Source: Anaerobaca lacustris (lineage in GTDB: Bacteria; Planctomycetota; Phycisphaerae; Sedimentisphaerales; Anaerobacaceae). From it: a stretch of 64,000 bases of DNA. The notes below the pieces were generated by a model. It was given only the letters and a program-made list of their open reading frames with translations. It made no database searches and was not told the origin of the DNA. The position numbers were made by a program, and so were the translations under genes. Location of the stretch: contig NZ_JASCXX010000005.1 of NCBI RefSeq assembly GCF_030012215.1, positions 1-64,000 on the forward strand, read 5' to 3'. Of this stretch, positions 30,519 through 61,634 are shown piece after piece; position 1 is the stretch's first letter; each line of letters opens with the position of its first letter.

Positions 30519-33500
30519 ATGTCTCGAAAGATGCTTCCTGTTGTGCTGCTCGCCGCCGTCTTCGGATTGACGGCGGCAAAAGCGGGCGCTGTGGAATGGA
30601 GACGCGCCGCATACTGGGATGGACGCTACGCCACACAATGGGTCGGCAGCGGTGAGGCGATGCGCGACGCCCTGGCCGGCGCCGGCTACGCGATCCTCAA
30701 CGCCGACGAGCTGAAGAGTTGGATGGACGAGCGCATCGACGACGGCGCGATGAGCGTGGTGGTGTTCTGTCGAGACGTCGTGCCCGACACGGTCACCGAG
30801 TCGCGATCGGCGGACTGCACGCTGCGTCAGTACCTCGATGCGGGCGGCAAGATCGTCTGGTACGGCGAGCTTCCGTTGTACTACCAGGGCCACGCCGATG
30901 GGACCACGACGACGTGGGGCCACGGAGGGTCCACCGCCATTCTGGGGTTCAACGCGGCCAATCAGCCCTATGAGAGCAACCAACAGGTGGTCCTGACATC
31001 GACGGGCACGGACTGGGGTCTGACTCAGAGGTGGGCCTCGACGCGGGCGACGACGATCCCCGACGACCCCGCCGGCTTCACCGTGCTGGCGAGGGCGGTG
31101 TTTTCATCGGCCGGCGGCAACAGCCGCTATGCCGCCGCATGGGCCAGGCATTACGTCGAGGACGACCGGTTCCGTGGATTCGTCCGTATCTGGGACGTGT
31201 ATATCGGCTTTGGAAACACGATCATTGCCTCTCCCTCCGTGGAGGAGGTGATGGCTGTAGCCGAGTACGTCGCCTTCAAGGCCTCGGAGCCCCAGCCGGC
31301 AGACGGGGCCGACGGTGTGTCATCCGGCCCGTTGGCGTGGAGAGCCGGAGAGTACGTCATCTCGCATGCCGTCTACTTCGGGGCTTCGCCGGAGTTGGGT
31401 GAGGCCGACAAGGTCGATGAAACTCCGAGCAGCGTGACGCACTGGAACACGCCTGCCTTCGAGGCCGGCGCCACGTATTACTGGCGCGTCGATGAGATCG
31501 ACGTGGATGGGATCGTTCGTGAAGGTGCTCTCTGGAGCTTTACCGCCGCTCCGTCGGCGGCCCATGCCCCCGTTCCGCAGGATGGCGCCGAGATGGTCGG
31601 CGCCGAACAGCCCGAACTGACCTGGTCGCCCGGTCTGGACGCCGTTTTGCACGAGGTCTACTTCGGCGACGATCCCAATGCCGTTGCCGAGGGCGCCGAC
31701 GACACCTACCAGGGCAGCCAGGCCGAAGCCGCGTTCGTAGCCGGCTCGCTCGACCGGGGCAGGACGTATTACTGGCGCGTCGATGAGATCCTGTCCGACG
31801 GCACGACGGCGGTCGGGCCCGTCTGGAGCTTCACGACGCTCCAGCAGATCGCCCCCGTCGATCCCAGCCTGGTCGGCTGGTGGAAGTTCGACGAAGAGGA
31901 TGGGACTGTCGCAATCGATTCATCCGGGCACGATCGCCACGGTACGCTCGCCGGATCGGTGGCCCGCGTTGACGGTCTGTTCGGCCGGGCCTTGGACTTC
32001 GAGCACGGCAATGCCAATGACGCCGTGGTGGTTCCCGCCTTCGATCTGCCGGACGGCGGCATCTCGATGGCCGCGTGGATTCGACCCGAGAGCTTCTCAC
32101 AGCACGACGCCCGCATTATCGAGAAGGCCAGTGGTGTCGCGGCCGCCAATGACGCGTGGTGGATGCTGGGCTCGAACTCCAGCGGGTCCAATTACGTTCT
32201 GCGGTTCCGGCTCAAGACAAACGACGATCGCGACAGCACCACCCTGCTGGCCATGTCCGGGCCCTTGTCGGCCGGTGAGTGGGCCCATGCCGCCGCGACA
32301 TGGGACGGCACGAACATGTTCCTGTACAAGGACGGAGAGCAGGTCGGCCAGAGCGGCAAGGGCGGCACCGCCGTGGCCGCCAACCCTGATCTCGACATCA
32401 CCATCGGCAACAGCATCGTCGGCGGCGCCGGACTCCGCGCGTGGGACGGCCTCATCGATGACGTCCGGGTGTACAACAAGGCTCTGACGTTCAATGATCT
32501 CGATCAGGTGATGAAGGGCGACCCGCTGCCTGCGTCGGACCCGAATCCGGCCAACGGCGCCGCACCCGACAGCTCGGGCGCGGTCCTGCTGACCTGGCAG
32601 CCCGGAGAGCGGGCGTTCCAGCACGACGTCTATCTCGGCACGGACCGCGCGCTGGTCCGAAAGGCCGACGCCGCGGACGCGACCGGCATCTATCGCGGGC
32701 GGTTCAACGCGCCGAGCTACATGCCGAACCCGGTGGTTGAAAGAGGCCAGCAGTACTTCTGGCGCGTCGATGAGATCAATGGCGACGGGACCATCAGCAC
32801 CGGCCACATCTGGACGTTCACGGTGGCCGACTATCTGATCGTGGACGATTTCGAAGGCTACACGGACAATATCGATGCGGACGAGACCATCTTCCAGACC
32901 TGGATCGACGGCTATTTCGACGGCAGCAGCGGTTCGACCGTAGGCTACCTCGGCGCCCCGTTCGCCGAGCTTGGGGTCGTCCACGGCGGCAGGCAATCCA
33001 TGCCGCTGCATTTCGACAACAGCGTCGCGCCCTACTACTCCGAGGCCGAGCGGAGCTGGTTCTCGCCGCAGGACTGGACCGCCTATGGCGGCGGCTCGCT
33101 TCAGATGCAAGTTCGCGGCCGCACGCTGTCGGGAACCACTCACTATGATCCGCTGTCACAGACCTATACGATCACCGGCGCCGGGTACAACATCTGGGCG
33201 ACGTCGGACCAGTTCCATTTCGCCTACAAGCAACTGACGGGCGATGGCTCGATCACGGTTCGCGTCGACGGGATGAGCGAAGAGCTTCCTCACGGGGATC
33301 CGAGGGTCGGCGTGATGATTCGGGACACACTCGACTACAACGCGGCCAACGCCATCGTATTTGCCGAACCCGATCCGAGGACCCGGCTGACGGCTCGCGT
33401 CACCACCGGCGGCGATACGTCCAGCGTAGCCACCATCGATGGCGTTGGCACGACGCCGATCTGGTTGCGCCTGACACGAGAAGGGTTTGTCTTCAAGGCG

Positions 33501-33962
33501 GCCAGATCGAACGACGGTGTGAATTGGATGCCGCTGCTCGACAGTGGTTCCGAGGTGAACATCAGCATGATGGACCCCGTCTACATCGGTCTGGTCGTCT
33601 GCTCTCACGCCTCCGGCCAGTTCATCGAGGGGCGATTCTCCAACGTCAGCACGACAGGCAACGTCGCCCCGTCCGGGCCGTTTACGGTCTCTCGCGACGT
33701 GGGCATTGCCAGCAACCCGCCCGAACTGTTATATGTGGCACTGGAAGACAGCGCCGGTCGAATGGCCACCGTCAAGCACACCGGCCTGGCCACTACGGAT
33801 GCGTGGCAGAGGTGGGAGATTCCGCTTGCGGATTTCCCAGGGGTGAATCCGACGGCCATCCGAAAGATGGTGATCGGGGTCGGCGACCGGAGTAATCCGA
33901 TGCCCGGCGGCGTCGGCACGATCTACATCGACGACGTCCGCGTCATGGACACCGAGCCGTAG
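30519..33962 (+). CDS. Secreted LamG / fibronectin-III-like multidomain protein
   Basis: A 1147-residue exported protein with a signal peptide ('LPVVLLAAVFGLTAAKAGA'). Residues 25-250 form an unassigned domain somewhat like ThuA/GATase folds ('GGKIVWYGELPLYYQGH'). Two FN3-like modules follow, each ending in 'YYWRVDEI' (near residues 320 and 417). A LamG/concanavalin-like domain covers about 447-665 ('LVGWWKFDEEDGTVAIDSSG'). A third FN3-like module ends with 'YFWRVDEI' (about 745). The C-terminal parts (770-870, 875-1040) look like carbohydrate-binding and DUF1349-like beta sandwiches. It probably binds polysaccharide at the surface. Ribosome site AAGGAGG at 30506-30512. Confidence 0.85.
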   Translation: MSRKMLPVVLLAAVFGLTAAKAGAVEWRRAAYWDGRYATQWVGSGEAMRDALAGAGYAILNADELKSWMDERIDDGAMSVVVFCRDVVPDTVTESRSADCTLRQYLDAGGKIVWYGELPLYYQGHADGTTTTWGHGGSTAILGFNAANQPYESNQQVVLTSTGTDWGLTQRWASTRATTIPDDPAGFTVLARAVFSSAGGNSRYAAAWARHYVEDDRFRGFVRIWDVYIGFGNTIIASPSVEEVMAVAEYVAFKASEPQPADGADGVSSGPLAWRAGEYVISHAVYFGASPELGEADKVDETPSSVTHWNTPAFEAGATYYWRVDEIDVDGIVREGALWSFTAAPSAAHAPVPQDGAEMVGAEQPELTWSPGLDAVLHEVYFGDDPNAVAEGADDTYQGSQAEAAFVAGSLDRGRTYYWRVDEILSDGTTAVGPVWSFTTLQQIAPVDPSLVGWWKFDEEDGTVAIDSSGHDRHGTLAGSVARVDGLFGRALDFEHGNANDAVVVPAFDLPDGGISMAAWIRPESFSQHDARIIEKASGVAAANDAWWMLGSNSSGSNYVLRFRLKTNDDRDSTTLLAMSGPLSAGEWAHAAATWDGTNMFLYKDGEQVGQSGKGGTAVAANPDLDITIGNSIVGGAGLRAWDGLIDDVRVYNKALTFNDLDQVMKGDPLPASDPNPANGAAPDSSGAVLLTWQPGERAFQHDVYLGTDRALVRKADAADATGIYRGRFNAPSYMPNPVVERGQQYFWRVDEINGDGTISTGHIWTFTVADYLIVDDFEGYTDNIDADETIFQTWIDGYFDGSSGSTVGYLGAPFAELGVVHGGRQSMPLHFDNSVAPYYSEAERSWFSPQDWTAYGGGSLQMQVRGRTLSGTTHYDPLSQTYTITGAGYNIWATSDQFHFAYKQLTGDGSITVRVDGMSEELPHGDPRVGVMIRDTLDYNAANAIVFAEPDPRTRLTARVTTGGDTSSVATIDGVGTTPIWLRLTREGFVFKAARSNDGVNWMPLLDSGSEVNISMMDPVYIGLVVCSHASGQFIEGRFSNVSTTGNVAPSGPFTVSRDVGIASNPPELLYVALEDSAGRMATVKHTGLATTDAWQRWEIPLADFPGVNPTAIRKMVIGVGDRSNPMPGGVGTIYIDDVRVMDTEP

Positions 33963-34003
33963 GGGACCGCCGAACTCGTATTAGGATAGATGCAAAACAC
34001 GGT

Positions 34004-34030
34004 GGGGGCGAGGCGTGCCTCGCCCCTGCA
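34004..34030. repeat. Short palindrome GGGGCGAGGC/GCCTCGCCCC, copy 1
   Basis: A near-perfect palindrome (GGGGCGAGGC, GT, GCCTCGCCCC) upstream of the FG-GAP protein gene. A sister copy is at 41826-41853. It lies in the untranslated leader, although the downstream frame is open through it. Confidence 0.75.
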
Positions 34031-41397: not shown

Positions 41398-41884
41398 TAT
41401 CGATGCGGGGGACGCCGCGTGCCGCGTGCCGGCCAGAGGCGCATGAAAAAAGGACGCCTCGGATCGTCCGCAGGTTGGGACCTCGGTCCACTGCAAGCGC
41501 CCCCCAGGTACAGGCCTGGTTGTTGCTACACATATTATACGGCGCGATCGCAGAACCCATGCGCGGACAAACGGCTATTGTCCCATAGAAAAAACCTCAG
41601 ATGCCACCGCCTTTGGCTGTATCGCGATCCGAATGCATCGGTGCCGTGACCGATCCTTCGGACCGCCTGTGGACGCTCGAGACCCATATCGAAGACGTCA
41701 GTGCCAGGGGAACAACCAGACATGGACGCGAATTCTGCGAGAGGACCATGCGAAACACCGATTCGTAATGTGCCCGTGAGGGCATAGGGGATAACGCCTG
41801 ACGGCGTCACTACAAACAGGCGCCGGTAGGGGCGAGGCATGCCTCGCCCCTGCATTCGAATGCGGCAAATAGCCGGTGCGCGTG
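41398..41884. other. Intergenic region with palindromes, no gene recognised
   Basis: No convincing frame lies between the coiled-coil gene and the end of the MetF fusion gene. It holds a hairpin around ACGCC/GGCGT (about 41791-41806) and the palindromic repeat at 41826-41853. Confidence 0.45.
41826..41853. repeat. Short palindrome GGGGCGAGGC/GCCTCGCCCC, copy 2
   Basis: GTAGGGGCGAGGC, AT, GCCTCGCCCCTGC: a palindrome sharing its arms with 34004-34030 and the GTAGGGGC end with the larger 62-bp palindromic family. It lies 31 bases past the stop of the MetF fusion gene. Confidence 0.8.
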
Positions 41885-44422
41885 TCAGGACGGTTTTCGG
41901 TTTTGCTGACAGAATTGGCCCATCAGTTCCATGGCTTTGCCGGTCTTGTCGAGCGAGCCGTCGAGTTGGGCGAAGGCGTCGACCAGTTCGACAAGGGCCG
42001 GATCGGGCTCGACGGTGCCGTACTTGTGGGCGGCGTTGACGATGCCGGCGTCGAGGCCGTACTCCATCGCCTTGGCGACGTAGGCCCGGCAGACGCCGAT
42101 CCTGCGGCCGGGCAGATCGCGCACCGAATTGCTGACGCCCAGCGAGAAGTGCGCGCCCTTGAATTTCGGGTCGCTCTTGATCTTCCTGATCGTCTCGAAC
42201 GTACGGTAGGTGTAGCCCGGCACGCCCGGCTCCATCGGCATGTCGATTGCCAGCGGAAAGACGGTCGAGTCGAAGAAGATCTGCTCCGGTTTGAAGCCGT
42301 ACTTGCCGACCGCCTCGTCGAAAATCCGATGGGCCAGGGCGCAGAGCTCGTCGACCGAGTGCGACCCGCCGGGACCGGTGGGCTTGTCCTCGCTGACGAG
42401 CAGCGCGATGACGGAGAAATCGTATTGCCTCTTTAGCGGCAGGATGCGGTCCATCGTATAGACCTTGACGGAATTCAGCAAGGGCGGGCGAATGACCGTA
42501 GGGGCAGGCCCCTGTGCCTGCCCGGGCTGTGCAGGGCAACCACGGGGGGTTGCCCCTACCCTATACCATTCCTTCAGGCCCGCTTCGAGCACGTCGTCGT
42601 TGCTGCTGTCGATACAGATGGGCACGCCGTCGCCCCAGCGATGCACGAGCCGGGTGTACTCGACCATCATCGCAACGGCCAGCTTTGGATCGTCCTCGCC
42701 GAAGGCGTCGAGATTGACCGCGATGTAATCGGCGCCGTCGGCCGCCTGCGACTCGATCAGGGCGCGGATGTAGTCGAGTTCGGGACTGGGCTGGGTGTAG
42801 GCGTCGGCGCCGCGGTCGCGCAACTGGTGCATGATCTGGCCCGTCTTGGGGATCGATGCGTGAACGGATTCGCCGATCGAGATCAGAGCGTTCTTCATCG
42901 TGTGGTCCTTGCCGAACAGATAGTTGAGAATCGAGGAGGAGTGCTGGAGCACCGGATTGCGGCGCGGGTTGATCGTGGCGCGCAACCGTTCGCGCCCGCC
43001 CTTCTCGGAGGCAGCCGCCTCGTAGACGCGATTGCCGACGCAGACGCGTTCGAGGTTGTTGCCGCAGTAGCCGTCCACGGTGGCGTCGCCGCACGGGGCG
43101 TTGTCGATGCCCTTCTCGCAGTCGCCCATCGTGCAGACGCCGAAGTTCTCGGGCAGGAAGCAGTCGCCGCACTCCTCACAGTCGAACAGGGTGTACTTGA
43201 ACGCCTTCTCACTGGCGTTGAACAGCTTGTAGACGGGGCCCTCGCCCTTGTCGGCGCCGAGAAAGGCCATCGTCCCCTTGAAGGCACGGAATCCGGCGTG
43301 GTCGGGGTCGAGAAACGCGCGGTGCGAGAAATCGAAGAACCGCTTGCCCAGCGTCGGTCGCGGCTGCGACAGAGGGACCGCCCTGCCGCTGTCGTCGTAG
43401 AGATAGAACGCCTCCTTGGCGGGCCAGCAGAGGTTGTCCTTGAAGGGCTCCCAGTCGGCGCCGATCTCGGCGGCGCGTTCGACGATCCGTGTGAACGTCG
43501 CAAAATCGTGGACCCCTCCAATGTCCACACCGGCGGCGCCCATCGCTTTGAACATGGCCACCTGTTGCGCGGCCCGCTCGATGTGGTCGTCGAGCTTCTC
43601 GCTGTAGACCTTGGCGAGAAGCTCGTCGCTGACGAAGCAGCCGGGCAGCTTGATGTCGTGCATCAGACGCGGCGCCGGCGTCAGTGTGCTGAGCAGGTAG
43701 ACGTTGCCGACCACCGGAACGTCGATCCGGCGTTCCTTGAGATAGATGAACAGTTCGAGGCTCTTACGCCAGTCCCAGCCGACCTGGGTAATGAGAAATG
43801 CGGCGCCGCAGCGGACCTTCTTCTCCATCTTGTAGTATTGCTGCATCTGCGTCGCTTCGCTGTACTTGAACGGCGAGACGGCCGCGCCGGCGATGAACTG
43901 ATGCACGCCGGCCAAGGCATCGGGCTTGGCGCCGAGATAGGCGTCGTGATTCATCTTCCGGATCAGGCGGAGCAGCCCGACGGATTCGAGTTCGAAGACG
44001 CCCTTGGCGGCGACGGGTTTGTCGCCCGTCAGCGCCAGCACGCTGAAGACGCCCGCCTTGCGAAAGCCGACCAGCGAGCTGACGATCGCGTCGGCGTTGG
44101 CGTCCTTGCAACTGATGTGCGGCACGACGTCGAGGCCGTCGAGCAGGTGGTTCGCTTCGAGGACGTTGATGATGGCGGCCGGCTCGAGGTTGGCGACGCC
44201 GCCAGGGTTCTGGGGCAGTGCGATCGCGGCAAAGTCGAAACCCTCGGGCAGGACCGCCCTGCCGCCCTGAGCCGCCTCCTGATAGACGTTGAGAAACCGC
44301 TCAATGGGTGCGAAGCTGAACCCCGGGCCGCCGGTCAATTCGGCCAGTACAAGCAGGTCCGACCGCTGGCGAAGCTTCTGTCCCAGACTCTTGTGCTCCA
44401 TTGCCGTCTCCATTGGGTCCAT
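41885..44422 (-). CDS. MetF-MetV-pterin methyltransferase fusion
   Basis: An 845-residue, three-part folate enzyme. Residues 1-310 are methylenetetrahydrofolate reductase-like ('LVLAELTGGPGFSFAPIERF', 'VLALTGDKPV', 'AFLITQVGWD'). Residues about 400-500 form a Cys-rich MTHFR C-terminal/MetV-like domain ('DCEECGDCFLPENF', 'CTMGDCEKGI', 'NAPCGDATVDGYCG'), expected to bind iron-sulfur or zinc. Residues 509-845 are a pterin-binding TIM barrel like AcsE/MetH methyltransferases ('IGESVHASIP', 'YIAVNLDAFGEDD', 'CIDSSNDDVLEAGLK'). Together they fit the methyl branch of the Wood-Ljungdahl pathway or methionine synthesis. Residues 622-642 come from a palindromic repeat. The start at 44422 is uncertain by a few codons. 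Confidence 0.82.
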   Translation of the reverse strand: MDPMETAMEHKSLGQKLRQRSDLLVLAELTGGPGFSFAPIERFLNVYQEAAQGGRAVLPEGFDFAAIALPQNPGGVANLEPAAIINVLEANHLLDGLDVVPHISCKDANADAIVSSLVGFRKAGVFSVLALTGDKPVAAKGVFELESVGLLRLIRKMNHDAYLGAKPDALAGVHQFIAGAAVSPFKYSEATQMQQYYKMEKKVRCGAAFLITQVGWDWRKSLELFIYLKERRIDVPVVGNVYLLSTLTPAPRLMHDIKLPGCFVSDELLAKVYSEKLDDHIERAAQQVAMFKAMGAAGVDIGGVHDFATFTRIVERAAEIGADWEPFKDNLCWPAKEAFYLYDDSGRAVPLSQPRPTLGKRFFDFSHRAFLDPDHAGFRAFKGTMAFLGADKGEGPVYKLFNASEKAFKYTLFDCEECGDCFLPENFGVCTMGDCEKGIDNAPCGDATVDGYCGNNLERVCVGNRVYEAAASEKGGRERLRATINPRRNPVLQHSSSILNYLFGKDHTMKNALISIGESVHASIPKTGQIMHQLRDRGADAYTQPSPELDYIRALIESQAADGADYIAVNLDAFGEDDPKLAVAMMVEYTRLVHRWGDGVPICIDSSNDDVLEAGLKEWYRVGATPRGCPAQPGQAQGPAPTVIRPPLLNSVKVYTMDRILPLKRQYDFSVIALLVSEDKPTGPGGSHSVDELCALAHRIFDEAVGKYGFKPEQIFFDSTVFPLAIDMPMEPGVPGYTYRTFETIRKIKSDPKFKGAHFSLGVSNSVRDLPGRRIGVCRAYVAKAMEYGLDAGIVNAAHKYGTVEPDPALVELVDAFAQLDGSLDKTGKAMELMGQFCQQNRKPS
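42498..42559 (-). repeat. 62-bp palindromic element inside the MetF fusion gene (copy A)
   Basis: The ends GTAGGGGCA and TGCCCCTAC form a terminal stem. Inside are two hairpins, GGGCAGG/CCTGCCC and GGGCAACC/GGTTGCCC, giving a three-way shape. The gene reads through it in frame as 'VGATPRGCPAQPGQAQGPAPT'. Copies of the same 62-base length are at 61120-61181 and 58933-58994. Confidence 0.9.
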
Positions 44423-44645
44423 GATCCGTTTCCGGGCGAGACACATACCACAAACACTGTAGGCTAACAAGTATCTCCGCTTATTTCCATACCAATCATA
44501 TGATTCAGACGCGTGGCAGTCCATCCTCAGAATTGGGTGTGGTGGTTCGATCGACATTTCCATTAGAATAGAAATGGACTTGAACAGACGGATGTGAACG
44601 GTCGTCCCGCGGCGAGTGAGACGACAGACGGGAAAGGAGATGGAT

Positions 44646-46052
44646 GTGCGGACGATATCGATAACGGCGACCGTGATTCTGCTTGTCATCGCTCTGGCCA
44701 CTCCGGGCTTTGCCACGGCCGTCACGGTCGACGGGGCGGTGCGGCATCAGACGATCGAGGGGTTCGGGACATGTCTGATCGCCTGGGTCGGTCGCTTTCG
44801 CGATCTGTACCGCACCGAGGAGTTCCAGAAGCTCTACGTCGAGGGTCTCGGGTGCAATATGCTCCGCGTCAACATGTGGGGCCCGACGTTCGAGAAGCCG
44901 ACGGAGGACTGGACGAAGATCCACTATCAGGATTTCGACATGAGCGCCAACGGGGGCCGGCCGCAGATCTTCGTCGACTTCGGGCAGGGCATTCGTAAGC
45001 TCGATCCCGACGTCAAGATCATCGGCACGGTCTGGAGTCCGCCGGCGTGGATGAAGATCAATCGCTCGATCACCGACACGAGGTCAGCCGCGATCCGCGC
45101 GGGCGGATACGGCGGCTTCGACAACCGCGTGGACCCGAAGTACTTCAGACACTTCTGCAAGTGGATGGTCGAATACGTCAAACGCCACGAGCGAGAGGGG
45201 GTGCCCTTCTACGCGGTCAGTCCGGGCAATGAGGTCCAGTTCACCCAGTCGTTCGAGAGTTGCGTCTGGGATGGCAAGGACTTCGCCACCATCGTCGCTA
45301 TGCTGCGCCAGATGCTGGACGCCGAGGGTTTTGGCCACGTGAAGATCTTCGGGCCCGAGACGATGACCAGCCACCTGTACGAAGGCGGAACAGGCGCCTA
45401 CGTCCGGGCGATCCTGGACGACCCGAAAGCGCTGGCGGCGCTCGACGTGTTCGCCACGCACGGCTACGAGGACGGGGTCAAGGGCGAGATGTCGGCGACC
45501 TCGTCGCGGAAGTTCTGGGACCTGATCGAGCAGACGGGCAAGCCGTTCTGGATCACCGAGGGCGGCACGGGCGATCACGACTGGCCCGCACCGATCCGCC
45601 AGGGGATCGGCAACGCGGTGCACAACGCCCTGGTGGCGGGCCGCTGCTCGGCGTTCGTGCCGTGGCAGATCACCGAGGGTCGCAAGAGCATTCACGCACT
45701 GATGGTGATGAGCGAGTACACGCCCAAAACGTACACGGCGATGCACTACACGAAATTCCTCCGGCCCGGCGCGGTGCGCATCGACGCGACGCCCGGCTTC
45801 GGCGCCGTTCAGGTCGGCGCGTTTCTGCACGAGCAGGCAGGCGAGCTGACCGTCGTGGCCCTCAATCCGACCGATGAGGCGCAGACGCTGACCCTGACCT
45901 TCCGCAACCTGGGGCGATTCGATTCATTGAAGGTCCGTCGCACCAGCGCCGATGAGAGCCTCAAGGAACTGCCCGATGTGCCGGTCCGAAACGATACGGC
46001 CCGCTTCGACATGATCGACCGGAGCATCGTCACCTTCTCAGCCACTCTGTAG
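44646..46052 (+). CDS. Glycoside hydrolase, GH30-like
   Basis: An exported hydrolase of about 468 residues with a signal peptide ('ITATVILLVIALATPGFATA'). The catalytic barrel follows: 'QTIEGFGTCLIAWVGRF' at its start, 'LRVNMWGP', 'GTVWSPPAWMK', the acid/base region 'AVSPGNEVQFTQ' and the nucleophile Glu in 'FWITEGGTGDHD'. A C-terminal beta domain ('GELTVVALNPTDEAQTLTL') is typical of GH30. Likely substrates are beta-glucans or xylans. AAAGGAG at 44633-44639 is ideally placed for the GTG at 44646 (6 bases); the ATG at 44640 has no room for it. Confidence 0.85.
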   Translation: MRTISITATVILLVIALATPGFATAVTVDGAVRHQTIEGFGTCLIAWVGRFRDLYRTEEFQKLYVEGLGCNMLRVNMWGPTFEKPTEDWTKIHYQDFDMSANGGRPQIFVDFGQGIRKLDPDVKIIGTVWSPPAWMKINRSITDTRSAAIRAGGYGGFDNRVDPKYFRHFCKWMVEYVKRHEREGVPFYAVSPGNEVQFTQSFESCVWDGKDFATIVAMLRQMLDAEGFGHVKIFGPETMTSHLYEGGTGAYVRAILDDPKALAALDVFATHGYEDGVKGEMSATSSRKFWDLIEQTGKPFWITEGGTGDHDWPAPIRQGIGNAVHNALVAGRCSAFVPWQITEGRKSIHALMVMSEYTPKTYTAMHYTKFLRPGAVRIDATPGFGAVQVGAFLHEQAGELTVVALNPTDEAQTLTLTFRNLGRFDSLKVRRTSADESLKELPDVPVRNDTARFDMIDRSIVTFSATL

Positions 46053-58911: not shown

Positions 58912-58997
58912 GTTTCGTCACGGACACCCCCTGTAGGGGCGCCCCCCTGTGGTTGCCCTTCCGGTACCGGGCAGACACAGGGGCCTGCCCCTACGCG
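58911..58997. repeat. Palindromic element with tail, supplying the pyrG stop (copy C)
   Basis: The 62-bp core (58933-58994) is read on the minus strand with the terminal stem GTAGGGGCA and internal hairpins. A 22-bp tail (58911-58932, GGTTTCGTCACGGACACCCC end) is shared with copy B at 61182-61203. It starts at the last base of the response regulator stop and its CGCGTAG end gives pyrG its TAG, so the gap between the two genes is entirely this element. Confidence 0.9.
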
Positions 58998-60763
58998 AGG
59001 CCGGCGACCTGTTTGACGGCTTCGATGCAGTCGGGCAGATCGACCTGTGCGTGGCGGCGTTTCGTGGCGGCCGCGACGAGTCCGACGAACATCGGGCTGG
59101 GCCTCAGCGGGCGGCTGGTCAGGCACGGATGGGCCTGGGTCCCCATGAAGAACGGATGGTCCGGCAGTTCGAGGATCTGCATGATCGGCTGGTCGGGGGC
59201 CTTGCCGGAGAAGACCAAGCCACCGGCTTCGAGCGTCTCGATGTACTTCGGGTCGACCTCATAGCGGTGCCGGAACCGCATGCGGACCGAGTCCTTGCCA
59301 CCGAAAAGATTCCAGGCCACCGTCTCGGGCTTGATCTCGACGTCGCGGCCGCCCAGACGCATGTTGCCGCCCAGGCCTTCGATCTTCTTCTGCTCGGGCA
59401 GGATGTCGATGACCGGCTCGGCGCATTTCGGATCCAGCTCGGTGCTGCCGGCGCCCTTGAGCTTGCAGACGTTGCGGGCGAAATCGATGACGGCCATCTG
59501 GAAACCCAAGCACAGGCCCAGATAGGGCAGGTCGCTCTCGCGGGCGTAGCGAACGCAGGCGATCTTGCCCTCGGCGCCGCGCGAGCCGAACCCGCCGGGC
59601 ACGATGATGCCGTCGACGCTCGCCAGACGCTCGGCCGCGTTCTTGTCGGTGATGTCCGTCGTCTCGATCCATTCGATGCCCACGTCGCAGCCCAGAGCAA
59701 TCCCCGCATGCTCCAGGGCATTGATGATCGAGGCGTAGCTGTCGCGGACGGAGGTGTACTTGCCCGTGATGCCAATGGTGCTCTTATACCTTGCCGTTCC
59801 GATGCGGTCGGTGAAGTCACACCACCTGGCCCAGGCCTTTCGCTCGTGCCGCAGGTTGATGCGGTCCTCGATCTTGAGCAGGCGCAGCACCTCGAAGTCG
59901 AGCCCGTGCTCGCGCAACATCGACGGGATCATGTAGATGCTGGCCGAATCGTGCAGGCTGACGACGCGCTCGAACGGGACGTTGCTGTAGATGCTGATCT
60001 TCTGTCGGGCCTTCTCGTTGACCGGATTCGTTGCGCGGCACGCGATGATGTCCGGCTGGATGCCGAGCTGCATCACCTGCTTGATCCCGAGCTGAGCGGC
60101 CTTGGATTTCTGCTCGCCCAGGGCCGGCGGCTCCAGGATGTACGTCAGTGCGACGAAGCAACTGCTGTGAGGGCCTTCCTCATAGGCCAGCTCGCGCATC
60201 GCTTCGAGGTAGTAGGCGTTCTCCAGGTCGCCGACGGTGCCGCCGATCTCGACGAAGACGACGTCGGCCTTGCTGTCGGCGGCGAGCTGTCGCAGCTTGA
60301 GCTTCACTTCGCCGGTGACGTGCGGGATCATCTGAACGTCGCGGCCGAGGTAATCGCCATGCCGCTCCTTGTTCAGCACGCTGCTGAAGATCTGCCCGCT
60401 GGTAGCGAAATTGGCCTTGCTCAGGTCCAGGTCCAGCATCCGCTCGTACGTGCCCAGGTCCATGTCGGTCTCCATGCCGTCGTCGAGGACGAAGACTTCG
60501 CCGTGCCGGAACGGGTTCAGCGTGCCCGAGTCGATGTTGAGATAGCCCTCCAGCTTGATCGGCGCGACCTTCAGGCCCTTGTCCTGGAGCAGCTTGGCCA
60601 GGCACGAGGAGAAGATCCCCTTGCCCAGCCCACTCATCACCGTGCCCATGACGAACACGTATTTGGTCTTGCCCTTCTTGTAGCCTGTCGGAATCGGCGA
60701 GAAGAATTCGCTCTCCGTCGAGGCGTCACTCAGTTTCGTCAGCAGCTCTTTGCTGTCAGCCAT
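58991..60763 (-). CDS. pyrG: CTP synthase
   Basis: Makes CTP from UTP, ATP and glutamine. It has 590 residues. The amidoligase half shows 'FVMGTVMSGLGKGIFSS', 'GTLNPFRHGEVFVLDDG' and 'VEIGGTVGDLE'. The glutaminase half has the nucleophile Cys418 in 'LGLCLGFQMAVIDFARN' and His545 in 'GTQAHPCLTSRP'. The usual 'HPEF' Glu of the catalytic triad is Cys547 here, and 'KLEGYLNID' replaces the typical 'KLDPYINVD'. The enzyme may thus prefer free ammonia or use another residue. It overlaps kdsB by 8 bases. Its TAG stop lies in a palindromic repeat. Confidence 0.93.
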   Translation of the reverse strand: MADSKELLTKLSDASTESEFFSPIPTGYKKGKTKYVFVMGTVMSGLGKGIFSSCLAKLLQDKGLKVAPIKLEGYLNIDSGTLNPFRHGEVFVLDDGMETDMDLGTYERMLDLDLSKANFATSGQIFSSVLNKERHGDYLGRDVQMIPHVTGEVKLKLRQLAADSKADVVFVEIGGTVGDLENAYYLEAMRELAYEEGPHSSCFVALTYILEPPALGEQKSKAAQLGIKQVMQLGIQPDIIACRATNPVNEKARQKISIYSNVPFERVVSLHDSASIYMIPSMLREHGLDFEVLRLLKIEDRINLRHERKAWARWCDFTDRIGTARYKSTIGITGKYTSVRDSYASIINALEHAGIALGCDVGIEWIETTDITDKNAAERLASVDGIIVPGGFGSRGAEGKIACVRYARESDLPYLGLCLGFQMAVIDFARNVCKLKGAGSTELDPKCAEPVIDILPEQKKIEGLGGNMRLGGRDVEIKPETVAWNLFGGKDSVRMRFRHRYEVDPKYIETLEAGGLVFSGKAPDQPIMQILELPDHPFFMGTQAHPCLTSRPLRPSPMFVGLVAAATKRRHAQVDLPDCIEAVKQVAGLA

Positions 60764-61634
60764 TGGAATCCTGTCCTTGGGATGCTGGGGTGTTGTGGGC
60801 CGGGTCGTTCACGTCCTGCTTGCGGTATCGTTGGACGAAGGCGGCGTATTGCTGGGGGGTGTCGATGCCTTCGGCGGTGTGCTCGACGGTGCCGACGAGG
60901 ATGGCGTGGCCGTTCTCGATGACGCGGAGTTGTTCGAGCTTTTCGGTCTTCTCCAGGGGCGTCTGCGGCAGGGCCGCCAATTGCAGCAGGAACTCTCGGC
61001 GATAGGCGTAGATGCCGATGTGCCGCAGGTAGTGGCCCGCCGGACCGATGCCCCCTCTGTCGCGGTCATAGGGGATGGGACTGCGGGAAAAATAGATCGC
61101 CCGCGCCGCCGCATCGCGCGTAGGGGCAGGCCCCTGTGCCTGCCCGGTACCGCAAGGGCAACCACGGGAGTTTGCCCCTACAGGGGATGTCCGTGACGAA
61201 ACCACCACCTTGACGACGTTGGGATCGGCCACCTGCTCGGCCAGGCGTAGCGGCGTCGCCAGTGTCGCCATGGGAACGTCGGGGTTCTCGACGAGGAGCC
61301 GGGCGAGGAGGTCGATGTGGTCCGGGTCGATTTCCGGCTCGTCACCCTGGACGTTGACGACGATGTCCGCATCCAAACCGGCGACGGCCTCGGCGATGCG
61401 GTCGGTCCCGCTCTGGTGATCGGCCCGGGTCAGCACACACGGGACTCCGAAGCTTTCGGCCGCGCGAACGACCCGTTCATCGTCGGCCGCAATGAGCACG
61501 CTTTGGGGCAGACTGGCCTTGGAGGCCCGCTCGTAGGTGTGCTGGATGAGATATTTGCCGGTGTCTTGGGCGAGAACTTTCCCGGGGAACCTGGTCGAAT
61601 CGTACCTCGCCGGTATACAGACTACGATCTTCAC
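60756..61634 (-). CDS. kdsB: 3-deoxy-manno-octulosonate cytidylyltransferase with a repeat-derived insert
   Basis: Activates Kdo as CMP-Kdo for lipopolysaccharide. It has 292 residues against about 250 normally. The N-terminus 'VVCIPARYDSTRFPGKVLA' binds CTP, and 'VNVQGDEPEIDPDHID' and 'YLRHIGIYAYRREFLL' are conserved. Between 'DPNVVKVVVSS' and 'YFSRSPIPYDRD' an extra segment (about 29 residues, with 152-172 coded by a palindromic repeat) is inserted. GTG at 61634 is taken as start. Its end overlaps pyrG by 8 bases, so the CTP-making and CTP-using enzymes share a transcript. LPS precursor synthesis fits a Gram-negative-type envelope. Confidence 0.92.
   Translation of the reverse strand: MKIVVCIPARYDSTRFPGKVLAQDTGKYLIQHTYERASKASLPQSVLIAADDERVVRAAESFGVPCVLTRADHQSGTDRIAEAVAGLDADIVVNVQGDEPEIDPDHIDLLARLLVENPDVPMATLATPLRLAEQVADPNVVKVVVSSRTSPVGANSRGCPCGTGQAQGPAPTRDAAARAIYFSRSPIPYDRDRGGIGPAGHYLRHIGIYAYRREFLLQLAALPQTPLEKTEKLEQLRVIENGHAILVGTVEHTAEGIDTPQQYAAFVQRYRKQDVNDPAHNTPASQGQDSNG
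61117..61203. repeat. Palindromic element inside kdsB (copy B, with tail)
   Basis: The 62-bp core 61120-61181 starts GTAGGGGCAGGCCCCTGTG and ends TTGCCCCTAC, with the same two internal hairpins as copy A. A 22-bp tail (61182-61203) matches copy C. The full 87 bases are a multiple of three. kdsB reads the opposite strand in frame as 'VGANSRGCPCGTGQAQGPAP' plus Thr. Confidence 0.92.

Follow-up and report, generated by a model that had tools for sequence, protein, structure and literature searches.

A GTAG-REP dimer in frame within a loop of the MetV domain of Anaerobaca lacustris

The 62 bp palindromic element in a MetF/MetV gene of Anaerobaca lacustris is very probably a GTAG-REP dimer, a dispersed non-autonomous repeat that landed in a tolerant loop of the MetV domain and is translated as a disordered loop. 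The window analysed is the whole stretch of 64 000 nt at the start of contig NZ_JASCXX010000005.1. The finding is a genuine and well-placed, but otherwise ordinary, example of intragenic GTAG-REPs, and the earlier idea of selection for a particular frame is reduced to a survival filter. Its interesting part is the comparative loop series. MetV orthologues show empty, short-palindrome, long-dimer and heptamer states side by side, and the idea that insertions are filtered by tolerance is thereby testable.

The element and known repeat classes

The initial annotation had described a 62 bp palindrome that is open in frame within the MetF-MetV-methyltransferase gene, and this was borne out, the gene being intact. 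The element is bounded by GTAGGGGC...GCCCCTAC at exactly 42498-42559. On the plus strand it consists of GTAGGGGCAGGCCCCTGTGCCTGCCC, a 10 nt spacer and the inverse of GTAGGGGCAACCCCCCGTGGTTGCCC, and each REP unit is 26 nt, made up of GTAG followed by an 8 bp stem-loop. The features referred to below are as follows.

41826-41853: 28 bp single-palindrome relative, about 30 nt beyond the 3' end of the host gene
41885-44446, minus strand: host gene, intact, with a MetF-like N-terminal part and a methionine-synthase pterin-binding (folate) domain
42498-42559: GTAG-REP dimer of 62 bp, a pair of REP units in inverted orientation, read in frame within the MetV domain
42498-42523, plus strand: REP unit, GTAG and stem GGGCAGGC / GCCTGCCC
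42524-42533: 10 nt spacer separating the REP units
42534-42559, minus strand: inverted REP unit, GTAG and stem GGGCAACC / GGTTGCCC
58933-58994, minus strand: third dimer, between convergent genes, with its TAG at 58991-58993
58991-60763: pyrG, whose stop codon is the TAG of the third dimer
61120-61181, minus strand: second in-frame dimer, in the kdsB beta-hairpin loop

REP units are found in the genome as single, dimeric and clustered copies. A second family, of 28 bp palindromes (GTAGGGGC + 12 + GCCCCTAC), has its ends in common with the 62 bp dimer. The genome contains 17 GTAGGGGC...GCCCCTAC palindromes versus 1 match to the reversed control pattern, and this, together with the RNA fold (z -3.6), shows that the element is not a product of chance. 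A degenerate 28 bp palindrome, GTGGGGGCGAGGCGTGCCTCGCCCCTGC, is at 34002-34029 in the window, just beyond the end of the gene at 30543-33962. An Rfam scan of the window found two tRNAs and nothing else, and a search of the literature for the literal element motif matched only unrelated human, parasite and primer papers.

The repeats have the characteristics of the GTAG REP superfamily, namely a short palindrome that has a 6-9 bp stem and is tagged with GTAG at one end, dispersal as singles and inverted dimers, and a location mostly downstream of genes, with the TAG often serving as the ORF stop. This class has already been described (Di Nocera et al. 2013, PMC3733652), including dimers, some copies inside ORFs and the TAG that ends a gene, and the copies found here share with it the terminal GTAG, the 8 bp stems, the inverted dimers and the position at gene 3' ends. 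GTAG REPs are known in PVC bacteria, and REPs are found at the same recB site in two Xanthomonas species (PMC3733652). However, the hosts here are different, as is the stem sequence (a comparison that leaves aside the published consensus figure), the copy number is low, no flanking RAYT gene was found, and in relatives unrelated heptamer arrays occupy both host loops. REPINs (Bertels and Rainey 2011, PMC3116915) likewise consist of an inverted REP doublet that folds into one long hairpin, but they are described as extragenic, whereas several copies here are in genes, and no association with a RAYT was detected. Rickettsia palindromic elements (RPE) are also palindromic repeats in frame within functional proteins. 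However, R. conorii RPE-4/6 end in CGTC (PMC3733652) and the element here ends in GTAG. As it is also from a different phylum (Planctomycetota relatives, not Rickettsiales), it is not an RPE.

The host gene and its orthologous loops

The host ORF is 41885-44725 on the minus strand, and the coding model starts at 44446. Its C-terminal half matches, in sequence, the folate-binding domains of methionine synthase and corrinoid methyltransferases, and the predicted fold of this half matches 5von and 3k13 (E about 1e-12). Relative to four congeners, dN/dS is 0.11-0.15 upstream of the insert and 0.08-0.12 downstream. Values of about 0.1 on either side indicate that the gene works, and from its sequence the enzyme is evidently in use. 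The possibility that the host is a pseudogene, which the initial annotation had named as fatal to its proposal, is contradicted by these values and by the long open frame.

The barrel is well modelled in the MetV domain (mean pLDDT 85.6), and residues 144-160, which are the insert, form the only internal stretch with a pLDDT <50. In the predicted structure, this stretch is between a helix (128-142) and a strand (167-171), making the insert a disordered alpha-to-beta loop of the folate-binding TIM barrel. In TIM barrels, the loops from a helix to the next strand are on the face away from the catalytic loops, which places the insert on the barrel face opposite the expected active site.

An empty MetV loop, consisting of EWY, about six residues and PPL, is found in two members of the same genus (G002 and G004) and in most other genera. 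Three further congeners (G001, G003 and G005) have a 28 bp palindrome at the same codon, read as VGANHDSP and variants, and G024 has a TTCAAAA heptamer array. Among 98 MetV loci, one of them unscored, the loop is 18 nt in 79, 21 nt in 7 and from 30 to 195 nt in the rest, and all inserts longer than 21 nt are multiples of three; as several genomes were counted twice (whole_genomes and genome_contigs copies), the independent events are fewer. Two loci from other Phycisphaerae (L101 and L086) have in-frame MetV-loop inserts of 195 and 111 nt that show no period of 7. Other loops of the host protein likewise gain inserts.

The net MetV insert is +54 nt for an element of 62 nt. The dimer stands in place of about 14-15 nt of the ancestral loop, with a net gain of 18 residues. 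Flanking remnants are found after the MetV dimer (ATTCGCCC) and after the kdsB dimer (GCGGCGGCG, also present in the heptamer-bearing G001), and these suggest, on sequence grounds, that both dimers replaced earlier inserts. In MetV, the displaced insert may have been the shorter 28 bp palindrome, already present in the ancestor.

The KdsB hairpin is the counterpart of the turn that KpsU (1gq9) forms at residues 148/149. It holds the dimer in G000, a TCGTCGC-type heptamer array in G001 and G002, other heptamer arrays in G010, G012, G020 and G024, a non-periodic insert in G015, and 9 nt in the remaining scored loci. The best period was 7 for 7 of the 11 non-REP inserts tested, which was matched by 0 of 300 shuffles. 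In 408 kb of the genus, with runs of N set aside, there were 6 period-7 arrays (L108:2637, L110:3525, L117:499, L144:1336, L149:669 and L168:2269) versus 0-1 arrays at any other period in the range 4-11, and period 7 was the only one in excess. Heptanucleotide short tandem repeats of the STRR type are known from cyanobacteria. The arrays that occupy both host loops in relatives share this period, but STRRs are tandem arrays rather than palindromes and their sequence is unrelated to that of the element. The patterns at the two loops need a minimum of two or three changes in the genus, where gene trees are poorly resolved (support 59-100) and gains and losses of inserts are not exactly countable.

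It is possible, though we hold this view tentatively, that unrelated repeats (GTAG-REPs and heptamer arrays) land repeatedly and independently in the MetV and KdsB loops, each taking the place of another. Such displacement in place could occur, for example, by recombination through shared GTAGGGGC arms, and, if this were true, the turnover of repeats would regularly supply MetV and KdsB with new loop peptides. The further proposal that a recombinase recognizes both loops as DNA-level hot spots of integration, beyond any tolerance of the protein, is unlikely. REPs and heptamer arrays do recur at the same codons, and palindrome types have been swapped between species at orthologous sites. However, it is the position in the protein that is fixed while the flanking codons and DNA vary between lineages, the repeat families concerned are unrelated, and inserts have been gained in other loops of the same protein.

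Hairpin, reading frame and survival

The RNA fold of the element is very stable (-42.8 kcal/mol, z -3.6), and effects of REPs near stop codons have been published (PMC12306157). A functional mRNA hairpin, kept for translation pausing or stability, is nevertheless an improbable explanation for the MetV copy, as the element is not conserved in the genus and two congeners retain the gene with no insert at the site.

The MetV copy reads VGATPRGCPAQPGQAQGPAPT and the kdsB copy reads VGANSRGCPCGTGQAQGPAPT, and the phase is identical, in agreement with the initial annotation. From these two genes it had been inferred that insertions using this one open frame are selected. However, two copies are not significant evidence. 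That the element has no stop in its own frame holds, but of the two shifted frames only one runs into TAG. In both copies, whichever strand is read, phases 0 and 1 are free of stops and phase 2 is closed, leaving four of the six frames open. When in-gene copies were counted by frame, the check that had been proposed, with each orthologous or paralogous event entered once, the nine independent copies in which both phases are open were divided between phase 0 (5) and phase 1 (4; p = 1.0). A preference for one open frame was therefore rejected, and there is no sign of frame preference beyond openness itself. All four independent in-gene dimer events are in phase 0, a number too small to establish a phase bias. 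The short AT-core copies mostly have no open frame other than phase 0, and its use there is trivial.

Protein-level selection for this frame and for the peptide GQAQGPAPT is thus very improbable. The four dimer events point towards it, but the four open frames, the 5:4 usage and the unrelated heptamer-array peptides that occupy both loops count against it. What stands of the earlier proposal is that insertions that keep the frame survive, seen in the net +54 nt and in the inserts across relatives in both the MetV and the KdsB loops, every one of which is a multiple of three. Such a filter amounts to ordinary purifying selection, acting on the integrity of the protein and the tolerance of the loop. 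Under the preferred reading, a GTAG-REP dimer would have reached the MetV loop as a repeat, by transposition or recombination, been tolerated by the protein as a translated, disordered loop, and survived under a limit to frame-preserving insertions in tolerant loops. The MetV case argues against taking open frames in such repeats as adaptation.

Though the sequence comes from a draft assembly in 117 contigs, an assembly artefact or a pseudogene is scarcely credible given the dN/dS on either side of the insert, the long open frame and three window copies that differ in sequence and context.

Mobility and distribution

The element was beside none of the 18 Y1_Tnp matches in six congeneric genomes. 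Y1 genes thus exist in the genus without linkage to the element, and mobilization by a cognate RAYT, as in REPINs, may still come from a distant gene acting in trans; as association with a RAYT (Y1 transposase) is common but not universal, it is no condition of GTAG REP membership. GTAG-REP units are present in 24 stretches of a viral collection. No Y1 gene was found in 21 virus-collection records carrying the REP, nor was a transposase (Pfam Y1_Tnp) found between the REPs of a pair spaced by 1.3-1.5 kb in viral records L284 and L278. Of the traits of MITEs, inverted ends are present, and a target-site duplication is not readable because the MetV loop was replaced. No mobilizer of this REP family emerged, and its spread may be by transposition or recombination.

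A census of loci fetched around pattern matches in six congeneric genomes, not an exhaustive set, recovered 89 copies, from five of the six (G004 had no exact match). Gene models were from a codon-usage caller made for the analysis rather than curated annotation. On this basis, 20 copies are within predicted genes, 19 end a gene with their stop codon, and the remaining 50 are intergenic. With a coding density of 0.80 in these loci, in-gene copies (20 of 89) are strongly depleted, though the naive binomial p of 1e-30 takes no account of kinship between copies or of the loci having been chosen around them. The proteins that end at a stop codon from the element mostly reach the end of the Pfam model (ThiG 247/247, HerA_C 502/502), indicating true 3' ends and not truncations. 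The dimer very probably belongs to a non-autonomous repeat dispersed, mainly to gene 3' ends, in a Phycisphaerae-type planctomycete genus.

Only 11 dimers are in the fetched set, a low copy number for a REP, and in a class-wide search the dimer pattern was patchy (5 of 347 genomes). In-gene hosts, named from Pfam domains, include mfd, addB, a kinase-TPR protein, a dicarboxylate symporter and a GH127 enzyme. Among them are two repair genes, and a bias of REPs to repair genes has been reported (PMC3733652). Two paralogous kinase-TPR genes, in L116 (G000:C20:34164) and L120 (G000:C32:33619), contain the same 58 bp dimer in frame, and a near-identical 58-mer is present in three copies in G292, from another genus. 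At orthologous intergenic sites (L179, L140 and L177; L119 and L142), the position of the palindrome is kept and its core is species-specific, GAGGCATGCCTC in G000 and GAATRATYATTC in G002 and G005, which points to exchange of copies in place or to their concerted evolution.
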